This document shows positions 1,239 through 27,594 of a stretch of 34,940 nt of DNA, in pieces; within the stretch, counting starts at the first letter, position 1, and each line of letters begins with the position of its first letter. Source of the stretch: Hydrogenispora sp. (GTDB taxonomy: Bacteria; Bacillota; UBA4882; UBA10575); contig DUQQ01000092.1 of assembly GCA_012837705.1 (NCBI GenBank), positions 1-34,940 of the forward strand, written 5' to 3'. The notes beneath the pieces are model-generated. The model was given only the letters and a program-made list of their open reading frames with translations. It made no database searches and was not told where the DNA came from. The translations under genes and the position numbers were made by a program.

Positions 1239-2534
1239 ATGGAGAAAGCAATTAACGTCGGCATTGTGGGTATGGGTGTGGTTGGCACCGGCGTTGCCAA
1301 AATAATTCTGAACCAAGGCCATTTACTTAGTGAACGCACGGGTAAACGCTTTGTGTTGAAGACCGCTGTTGATCTCGATTGGGAACAGGAGCGGGGGGTG
1401 GACCTGGCGGGTGTGCAGACCACCACCGATTTTGAAGCGCTCGTGACCGATCCGGAGATCGATGTTGTTGTGGAGACGGTTGGTGGAATCGAACCGGCTT
1501 TTACTATGGTCCGGCGGGCGCTGGCCACCGGGAAACATGTGGTGACCGCCAATAAAGCCCTGCTCGCCATGAAAGGAAGAACCCTCTTTCAGGAAGCGGA
1601 AGATCATGGGGTTGAGCTGCGATTTGAAGCCAGTGTCGGTGGGGGAATTCCGATTATCAAAAGTTTGAGGGAAGGCTTGGTTGCCAACAAGATTATGAAT
1701 ATGTATGGGATTATTAACGGAACCTCCAACTATATTTTGACCCGCATGCACCGGGAAGGACTAGATTTTGACGCTGCCCTCCGGGAGGCACAGATCCAGG
1801 GCTTTGCCGAAGCCGATCCCACCCTGGATGTGGGCGGGGGTGATGCCGCGCACAAACTGACGATTCTCGCCTCATTAGCTGCGGGCGGTTTCGTTGATTT
1901 TAACGCCATTCCGGTGGAAGGGATTACCGAGTTGACGACGTTGGACATCGATTTCGCCAAGAACTTTGGCTATGTCGTAAAACTACTGGCGATCTACCGT
2001 TTTAACGAAGAAAAACTGGATTTACGGGTTCATCCCACTTTGGTCCCGGGTGATCACCTGTTGGCGGCGGTCAATAATGAGTTGAATGCGGTCTTTATCA
2101 CCGGGGATTATGTGGGCGACACGATGTTTTACGGCCCGGGTGCGGGTCAAACACCGACCGCCAGCGCCATCGTCAGCGATTTGGTGGATCTAGCCTCGAT
2201 CCTGCAGGCGGAGAAAGTGGCTTCCATCCCGACGATCAACCCGGAGAAGACGGTCAATCTTTTCTCCCTTGAAGAGATTACAAACCGTTTTTACCTACGC
2301 TTGTTCACTCTAGACCAACCGGGAATCCTGGCGCAAATTGCTGGTGTTTTCGGAAAATACGGCATCTCCATCTCTTCGGTCGTGCAGTTAGAGACCCATG
2401 GTGATGAAAATTACGTACCGATTGTCCTCTTGACCCATGAGGCGTCGGAAAAAGCTATGTTCAAGGCGATGATGGCGATTAAGGAGTTTCCGTTCGTCCG
2501 GCCGGATATCTTAAGATTACGACTTTTTAAATAA
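1239..2534 (+). CDS. hom: Homoserine dehydrogenase with C-terminal ACT domain
   Basis: Homoserine dehydrogenase reduces aspartate semialdehyde to homoserine with NAD(P)H, the branch point to threonine and methionine. The 431-aa protein opens with a Rossmann motif, GIVGMGVVGTGV (about residues 8-19). The catalytic-domain blocks TANKALLA, EASVGGGIPI, NGTSNYIL and FAEADPTLDVGG follow. The last ~80 residues hold an ACT domain (beginning near YLRLFTLDQPGILAQI), which usually mediates feedback inhibition by threonine. The ATG at 1239 follows GAGGTGAG at 1226-1233. The gene stands alone: thrC and thrB are not in the window. Control is by the T-box leader directly upstream, so it is probably regulated both by attenuation and allosterically. 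Confidence 0.97.
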   Translation: MEKAINVGIVGMGVVGTGVAKIILNQGHLLSERTGKRFVLKTAVDLDWEQERGVDLAGVQTTTDFEALVTDPEIDVVVETVGGIEPAFTMVRRALATGKHVVTANKALLAMKGRTLFQEAEDHGVELRFEASVGGGIPIIKSLREGLVANKIMNMYGIINGTSNYILTRMHREGLDFDAALREAQIQGFAEADPTLDVGGGDAAHKLTILASLAAGGFVDFNAIPVEGITELTTLDIDFAKNFGYVVKLLAIYRFNEEKLDLRVHPTLVPGDHLLAAVNNELNAVFITGDYVGDTMFYGPGAGQTPTASAIVSDLVDLASILQAEKVASIPTINPEKTVNLFSLEEITNRFYLRLFTLDQPGILAQIAGVFGKYGISISSVVQLETHGDENYVPIVLLTHEASEKAMFKAMMAIKEFPFVRPDILRLRLFK

Positions 2535-12989: not shown

Positions 12990-13667
<678 letters not shown>

Positions 13668-22311: not shown

Positions 22312-22758
22312 TTGCTGGATACGACAGAAATCAAAAAAGTTTTACCACATCGTTTTCCATTTTTGCTCATTGACCGTGTGATCGAGATTGAGCCGGGGAA
22401 AAGAGTGGTCGCGATTAAAAATATTACCGTCAATGAAGTTTTTTCGCAGGAGTATTACGGTGGACTCTATCCAATGCAGGGTGTTCTTCAGGTGGAAGCC
22501 ATGGCGCAGACGGCTGCCTTTTTAATTCTCAACTCCGAAGAGAATAAAGGACAGCTCGCTTACTTCTCCAATATTGAACATGTCCGTTTCCGCACACCCG
22601 CCCTTGCCGGAGATCAACTCCGGATCGAGGTAGAATTGGTGCGCTTACGCGCGCGCGCCGGCAAGTTTAAAGGCTGTTGTTATATTGGTGACAAGAAAAC
22701 CTGTGAAGCAGTCTTCAGTTGCATGTTGGCGGCGGATCAGAAATCTTCATTTCTTTGA
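22312..22758 (+). CDS. FabZ-like hotdog-fold protein lacking the catalytic histidine
   Basis: A 148-aa hotdog-fold protein most like (3R)-hydroxyacyl-ACP dehydratase FabZ, which dehydrates 3-hydroxyacyl-ACP in fatty acid synthesis. Family landmarks are LPHRFPFLLIDRV at the N-terminus and VEAMAQ, whose Glu62 is one of the two catalytic residues. The other, the His of the GHFPG motif 14 residues before it, is replaced: the stretch reads SQEYYGGLYP, so Tyr48 sits in the histidine position. Alignment needs no gap. The enzyme may therefore be inactive as a dehydratase or do something else. The start is TTG 22312, behind AAGGGGGAG. It is not in a fab operon. Its 3' end overlaps the convergent PHP gene by 22 bases. 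Confidence 0.85.
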   Translation: MLDTTEIKKVLPHRFPFLLIDRVIEIEPGKRVVAIKNITVNEVFSQEYYGGLYPMQGVLQVEAMAQTAAFLILNSEENKGQLAYFSNIEHVRFRTPALAGDQLRIEVELVRLRARAGKFKGCCYIGDKKTCEAVFSCMLAADQKSSFL

Positions 22759-23516
22759 TGAACCAACTTTTTCACCAGGTTGCCGGCGCAGGTGACCAGC
22801 CGTAAAATGGAGAAGGGGACATGATCGTCCGTGATCAGGGTGATTCCTTCGTTTTGCTTTAGGACCCGGACCAACGCACGGGTGTCAGCAACAGCTTCGG
22901 GGAGGATCAGCCCACCGCGGGCCAAGTCGGGGAGACGATGGAAATCAGAACCGGAGATCATGCGCAGCTTATTCTGCTGGGCAAAAGCGAGTGCCATCTG
23001 ATTGTTGGAATTTTGTCGCGGATTACCATTATAGACTTCAATGCCGTCGATTAGATCCAAGGGGGCAGGTGAGATCCCCGGTCGAAAAGGATGGGCTTGG
23101 TAGATCAGGATTTCCTTACCGGAGGGAAACTGCGTACTAAATTTCCGGAATTCGGCGAGACCCATCTGGTATAGTTCGGGGTTTTGTTTGAGAAAAGTTT
23201 CGTCGATACCGTACACTAAAAACTCCCGGGGCGAGTCGACAAACTTAAGTTCAATTCCTAAGAGAACGGTTAACCCGATTTCTTCCCCTTCTTTCCGAGC
23301 GGCGCGGTAGCCCCGCAAAAAGTGGTCAATCCGGGCGGACCATGGTACGGACTTGGGGAATTTGCGGAAATAACTCCGGTTATAATGGTCGGTGATGACG
23401 ATTCCGTCATAACCGGCTTTTTTGTATAATTGGGCGACTAAACGCCCTTCGGTACGTCCACAAATACTAGATTCCCGGGTGTGGACGTGGAGATCAATCC
23501 GAAAAGACTTCATCAT
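22737..23516 (-). CDS. PHP-domain metal-dependent phosphoesterase
   Basis: A 259-aa protein with the polymerase-and-histidinol-phosphatase (PHP) fold, a trinuclear metal hydrolase. The metal-ligand motifs are present in order: HVHTRES near the N-terminus, VITDHYN (about 39-45), GIELK (about 88-92), YQAHPFR (about 139-145) and GSDFHR near residue 196. Relatives hydrolyse 3',5'-nucleotide bisphosphates (RNase AM/YciV) or other phosphoesters, so the substrate is open. ATG 23516 is chosen, just upstream of a second in-frame ATG. A TATAAT-like element lies at about 23536-23541 on the minus strand. It converges on the FabZ-like gene with a 22-base overlap and lies downstream of the candidate RNA gene, with which it shares a strand. 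Confidence 0.88.
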   Translation of the reverse strand: MMKSFRIDLHVHTRESSICGRTEGRLVAQLYKKAGYDGIVITDHYNRSYFRKFPKSVPWSARIDHFLRGYRAARKEGEEIGLTVLLGIELKFVDSPREFLVYGIDETFLKQNPELYQMGLAEFRKFSTQFPSGKEILIYQAHPFRPGISPAPLDLIDGIEVYNGNPRQNSNNQMALAFAQQNKLRMISGSDFHRLPDLARGGLILPEAVADTRALVRVLKQNEGITLITDDHVPFSILRLVTCAGNLVKKLVHQRNEDF

Positions 23517-23617
23517 TTCGCTCCTGAGTCAATGAGGTTTATTTTATTATAGGCCATTAGGGGTAAAATATGAGGGCGTATGCCCTGTGGTTTAATGGTT
23601 TTGGTTGTTAGGAGGGG

Positions 23618-23807
23618 AAAAGAAAAGAGCCACCCGAAACGGTGGCAAAAACTAAAGTGTATCTTAACGATTTGGGATAATAATTGGTTTCACTCTCTCT
23701 GACTGCCGGCGTGGTCAAGAGGGAGGCGAGCTGCTCCAGTACGTAGGGCCCTTACGCCTGAGGCGCTCTCCATTCTTTCATGTTGAAGACTCAACACTGA
23801 AGAATGT
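23618..23807 (-). ncRNA. Candidate structured RNA of unknown family
   Basis: On the minus strand a TATAAT (23816-23811) is followed, beginning at about 23806, by a strong hairpin: CATTCTT (23806-23800) pairs with AAGAATG (23777-23771), and TGTTGA pairs with TCAACA inside it. A GC-rich middle (about 23700-23770) can pair in several ways, for example AGGCG with CGCCT and GAGC with GCTC. An intrinsic terminator closes it: GCCACC (23646-23641) with GGTGGC (23634-23629), then UCUUUUCUUUU. The unit is about 190 nt with no sensible ORF. It could be a free small RNA or a regulatory leader of the PHP gene 100 bases downstream. I tried to match it to 6S, SRP, c-di-GMP, c-di-AMP, M-box and cobalamin RNAs and it fits none. 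Confidence 0.45.
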
Positions 23808-23891
23808 ACCATTATATTACCACAGAAAATATCCAAATGCAATAGGATTTGGCAAAAAAATTATAAAAAATTTTCGCGTCGTGATGGTTAG

Positions 23892-27518: not shown

Positions 27519-27594
<76 letters not shown>

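Follow-up and report, generated by a model that had tools for sequence, protein, structure and literature searches.

A predicted transcription unit lies between ychF and a PHP-domain gene

The window, by which we mean the whole stretch of 34,940 nt analyzed here, carries ychF and a gene for a PHP-domain protein in divergent orientation, and between their start codons it holds only short, unpersuasive open reading frames, in agreement with the first-pass annotation of this DNA, which had found none. In this gap lies a predicted unit of about 190 nt on the minus strand (Table 1). The annotation had given the unit its own promoter and terminator; both are present and both are conserved in relatives, and from them we infer transcription, which probably begins near 23807-23809 judging by the position of the promoter. 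The -35 and -10 elements are separated by a 17-nt spacer. The TATAAT reported earlier does occur, at 23817-23812 (minus strand), but we assign the -10 element to the overlapping TAATAT. Likewise, the stable 5' hairpin described as 7 + 6 bp was recovered, though with 7 + 7 bp in the minimum-energy fold of the window copy (P1). Between P1 and the linker is a structured core that is GC-rich as claimed, in which the 8-bp stem of P4 has one mismatch, and the unit ends, again as claimed, in a clean terminator consisting of a stem and a T-run. Elsewhere in the window are a PyrR binding site at 12996-13104 (plus strand; RF00515, 63.8 bits), which is an ordinary pyr attenuator element, and a tRNA-Ala gene at 27519-27594 (minus strand).

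Table 1. Features of the unit and of the downstream PHP-domain gene, in window coordinates
Feature	Position	Strand	Basis or remark
RNA, about 190 nt	23618..23807	-	ends inferred from promoter and terminator
-35 element TTGCAT	23837..23842	-	TTGCAT or TTGCnn in the corresponding position of other f1 copies
-10 element TAATAT, extended by TGG	23814..23819	-	sequence; relatives
P1, 5' hairpin at the presumed transcription start	23771..23806	-	minimum-energy fold
P2/P3 hairpin, closed by conserved GAGC/GCUC	23728..23768	-	covariation and model matches
P3 loop hexamer GGGCCC, self-complementary, proposed symmetric kissing loop	23746..23751	-	
P4 hairpin: 8-bp stem, bulged U, short GAC/GUC stem, loop CACGCCGGCA	23693..23725	-	
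P4 loop hexamer GCCGGC, palindromic	23705..23710	-	
Linker, A/U-rich, U-rich, poorly conserved	23647..23692	-	
Intrinsic terminator GCCACC..GGTGGC plus T-run	23618..23646	-	stem at 23646-23629
TATAAT, probable separate PHP promoter	23546..23551	-	ATAAT-type box recurs in relatives
PHP-domain protein gene, downstream neighbour, outside the unit	22737..23516	-	

The RNA occurs throughout one order and in most of a class

A DNA search recovered the unit in seven other genomes of the window's genus at 74-91% identity, and matches faded but persisted through the window's family. All copies found in the order have GACCACGCCGGCAGTC in common. A second, diverged copy turned up unexpectedly in almost all genomes of this order of uncultured Firmicutes; in the window's own genome it lies at G000:C34:36416-36495. 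We refer to the ychF-side copy as copy A and to the other as copy B. A covariance model (R1) was built from an alignment of 16 sequences, mostly copy B (alignment A1). Although the training set contained no copy A from the window's genus, R1 found the one in the window with 64.2 bits (E = 2.3e-12). R1 matched 17 of 17 genomes of the order and 24 of 29 genomes of the class, and a class-level model (R2) matched 26 of the 29. For G028, the lack of a match may reflect the end of a contig.

In a sample of 398 genomes of the phylum, 16 matching genomes fell within the class. Among the roughly 380 sampled genomes outside it, R2 gave two marginal matches (G289:C2:5692-5762 and G365:C46:38127-38206; E about 0.085), which are probably due to chance. 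Exact-motif matches in other phyla scored weakly with R1 (best 27.6 bits, E about 0.001, gained mostly on the motif used to select them), and we took them as chance. A phage origin was also considered and rejected: phages gave no match to the RNA, and of at least 80 viral-contig loci listed with a looser pattern, 50 were scored with R1 and none matched. Where a record with the RNA bears a name, it is a metagenome assembly under the label Bacillota or Firmicutes bacterium; anaerobic digesters are the habitat of several of the assemblies.

The first-pass annotation could not place the RNA in a known family, and an Rfam covariance search upheld this. With Rfam 15, no family reached its gathering score at the window RNA, at the second-copy loci or at the class-level loci. 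The best sub-threshold match in the gap was MicA (25.4 bits, with 41 needed), mainly on the terminator, and the sub-threshold matches at the RNA were at chance level only. A limited literature search, in which absence is not proof, found no papers describing the RNA.

The helices covary and assign the RNA to the minus strand

Folded alone, the minus strand was modestly more stable than shuffled sequence (z = -1.95 for 190 nt and -2.26 for 198 nt), so that folding by itself was unconvincing and comparison with relatives carried the case. In A1, 92.7% of cells were paired and 11 pairs had changed on both sides, against a shuffle mean of 5.8. The covariation score was 0.313, compared with 0.198 for shuffled alignments and at most 0.114 for slid controls. 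At the class level, P2 covariation was 0.297 versus 0.169. P1 varies in sequence among relatives and keeps its stem, which measured 7-12 bp in the copies tested (a few were misplaced by the automatic search), and of 40 copies, 35 have a -10-like hexamer immediately before P1. By eye, copy B and the f5 copies show a recurring GA...GA internal loop at the P2/P3 junction that could form tandem G-A pairs.

The plus strand folded better than the minus strand (z = -4.89), and we therefore considered a plus-strand RNA. Read as minus-strand RNA, A1 contains 53 G-U cells and 5 A-C cells, the latter being those that would be G-U if the opposite strand were the RNA. In addition, terminators follow all 40 copies on the minus-equivalent strand. 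The excess of G-U over A-C and the orientation of the terminators identify the minus strand as the RNA. One copy, L017 in genome G016, has a long linker after the core with repeats such as AGGTATCTC, and its first terminator comes about 300 nt after the core begins.

The earlier suggestions that this might be a new small RNA, and that relatives should be compared for compensatory changes, were thus both borne out: the relatives keep the RNA, its promoter and its terminator, and the helices covary. On this comparative evidence it is a real RNA family, conserved across the order and most of the class, and we consider it very likely to be a new family of stand-alone RNAs.

Genomic context argues against a leader of the PHP gene

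The first-pass annotation had alternatively proposed a riboswitch-like leader acting on the PHP gene. A cis-acting leader or riboswitch would be compatible with an arrangement in which PHP lies downstream of the RNA on the same strand, as it does in G008, G011, G012, G013 and the genus of the window. However, the terminator of the RNA lies some 100 nt short of PHP, and a further TATAAT, about 30 nt ahead of the start of PHP, gives that gene a probable -10 element of its own. Inspection by eye revealed no antiterminator and no alternative structure that would sequester a Shine-Dalgarno sequence. The interval between the terminator and PHP also contains a small hairpin, AGGGCATACGCCCT, at 23573-23586 (minus strand), which has a similar counterpart in L002 and is not obviously kept elsewhere.

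The neighbours of the other copies weigh further against a leader. The second copy in the window's genome lies between mtaD-like and flavoprotein/nrdR genes, and f1 copies B in general lie downstream of an mtaD/SAH-deaminase-like amidohydrolase gene and upstream of an HI0933-type flavoprotein gene, nrdR or both. In the window's genus, copy A adjoins ychF and PHP; elsewhere its neighbours differ and include three genes that we named by reading their protein sequences as pheS-like, peroxiredoxin-like and convergent hydrogenase-like; in g3 and g4 the gene after the RNA is of this hydrogenase type, on the opposite strand and convergent. In f5 a single copy follows sigK at about 0.2-0.8 kb, and in one f5 genome (G025) the RNA precedes nrdR; no such RNA was present before nrdR in the stretch examined in G017 and G023. 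After the RNA in L141, at 1792-1909 (plus strand), is a partial match to the T-box leader, cut by the contig end (RF00230, 53.8 bits, below the gathering score). The RNA thus holds no fixed position upstream of one gene or function. Given these varied neighbours, the terminators after every copy and the frequent -10-like box, we conclude that the RNA is, as far as genome comparison can tell, a stand-alone gene independent of its neighbours, and we regard a PHP leader as highly improbable.

The P3 loop changes its letters and keeps its self-complementarity

In an alignment-based reading, the P3 loop hexamer was self-complementary in 39 of 40 copies. The hexamers were GGCGCC (26 copies), GGGCCC (9), GACGUC (3), GGUGCC (1) and GACGCC (1), the last being the sole exception, in L136 1550-1628 (plus strand) of genome G018. 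The same genome also carries a GGCGCC copy. When the 3' letters were shuffled, a mean of 23.2 of 40 copies were self-complementary, and none of 20,000 trials reached 39. With each genus and copy contributing one count, the figure was 20 of 21 against 14.3 expected from shuffling (P = 5e-5); like the other shuffle statistics for P3, this value ignores shared ancestry. In alignment A4, 11 P3 cells had changed on both sides compared with 2.0 after shuffling, and the covariation score was 0.321 compared with 0.092. The changes amount to few events: CG to GC once or twice, CG to UG once, and GC to AU once or twice. A SigK tree splits the GACGUC genera into two separate groups (forks 83/86, moderate support), suggesting at least two exchanges.

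Hexamer positions 3 and 4 adjoin each other and 2 and 5 lie too close together, which prevents either couple from pairing inside a single loop. The simplest reading suggested by the loop changes is therefore that P3 pairs between two molecules. Two other partners for the loop were considered and set aside. Kissing between P3 and P4 of one molecule (GGCG with CGCC) is possible in some copies, and we dropped it since P4 stays GCCGGC where P3 has become GGGCCC or GACGUC. For the P3 loop and the linker that follows GCUC, inspection showed no covariation across copies.

Calculated as plain duplexes rather than kissing loops, the P3 self-duplexes came to -11.7 kcal/mol for GGCGCC, -12.5 for GGGCCC, -7.5 for GACGUC and -7.2 for GGUGCC. 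Two known HIV-type kissing hexamers gave similar values on this scale (GCGCGC, -10.9; GUGCAC, -7.9). The cross-duplex between the P3 hexamers of copy A and copy B was -6.4 kcal/mol. Taken together, the loop changes point to a homodimer formed through a symmetric P3 kissing loop, and we judge such a dimer somewhat more probable than its absence.

The same loop changes bear on a different function, in which the RNA would be a trans-acting, Hfq-assisted regulator whose P3 and P4 loops pair with target mRNAs. U-rich linkers and terminator tails are typical Hfq contacts. Both are present here, the unit stands alone, and all 29 class genomes encode Hfq. Yet the conserved bases lie mostly in tight hairpins, and pairing with targets does not predict a loop that changes its letters and keeps its self-complementarity. 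We consider this regulator unlikely.

The P4 loop is an invariant palindrome

The P4 loop reads GCCGGC in 40 of 40 copies, and its self-duplex is calculated at -11.7 kcal/mol. A palindrome that never varies provides no covariation evidence, and a second self-contact through P4 is accordingly a tentative proposal, drawn from the palindrome itself; alternatively, a protein or a different RNA may recognize the hexamer. One alternative for the whole RNA takes this further: as a scaffold or sponge, it would present GCCGGC with the bulged U, and perhaps P3, to a protein that is possibly a dimer, and the loops would not kiss. Invariance of the P4 hexamer while its flanks vary speaks for such recognition, and a two-fold symmetric protein partner could also account for the conserved palindromes. 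Against it, a sequence-specific protein is unlikely to accept GGCGCC, GGGCCC and GACGUC in P3, where the changes preserve complementarity and not sequence. We rate a purely protein-recognized RNA as improbable, slightly more so than the Hfq-assisted regulator.

A model for self-association

Our preferred model is a stand-alone small RNA that forms a homodimer through P3, with a possible oligomer through P4; we favour it with some reservation. A sigma-70-type promoter would start the RNA at P1, the transcript would fold into P1, P2/P3 and P4, and synthesis would stop at the intrinsic terminator past the U-rich linker. The P3 palindrome would then pair with the identical loop of a second molecule, and P4 might add a further contact, giving chains or closed rings. 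Whether in such a form the RNA acts as a scaffold or within an RNA-protein particle is a guess at its cellular role.

A stronger form of the model, which we hold to be possible but doubtful, is that this compact RNA of about 190 nt with two palindromic loops assembles itself without protein into dimers, rings or chains. Under protein-free assembly, each of the two g1 paralogues would form complexes of its own, since one carries GGGCCC in P3 and the other GGCGCC and cross-pairing is much weaker, and the shared P4 could still link these complexes. Two paralogues with different palindromes therefore offer a built-in test of specificity. Apart from this model, the RNA family itself is new to Rfam, and it occurs in a class of Bacillota that is represented here mostly by metagenome assemblies.

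Comparison with known RNAs

6S RNA (RF00013) resembles the window RNA in standing alone, in its similar length and in often having two copies in Firmicutes. It differs in structure, and we rejected it as an identity for the RNA, which has no RF00013 match; a separate 6S gene is present in 27 of the 29 class genomes.

The dimerisation initiation site (DIS) of HIV-1 is a hairpin loop with a 6-nt palindrome and a flanking purine. P3 likewise has a 6-nt loop palindrome, a flanking purine and a comparable hexamer energy, whereas the DIS is an element of a viral genomic RNA and is unrelated to the window RNA by descent.

Few natural RNAs form homo-oligomers, and those known from bacteria are very large. 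OLE, GOLLD and ROOL are bacterial non-coding RNAs that form homo-oligomers with symmetric kissing loops (PMC12286853). The window RNA has no Rfam match that would make it their homolog. It does have in P3 a trait of this group, a symmetric loop that switches between palindromes. Kretsch et al. applied the argument from neighbouring loop bases to palindrome switching in OLE L9.3 and GOLLD L21a (PMC12286853), and the switching in P3 is evidence of the same kind. OLE, GOLLD and ROOL are much larger than the window RNA, whose oligomerization is predicted; if the prediction is true, a kissing-loop RNA of 190 nt would be a small and tractable case for RNA-only assembly.
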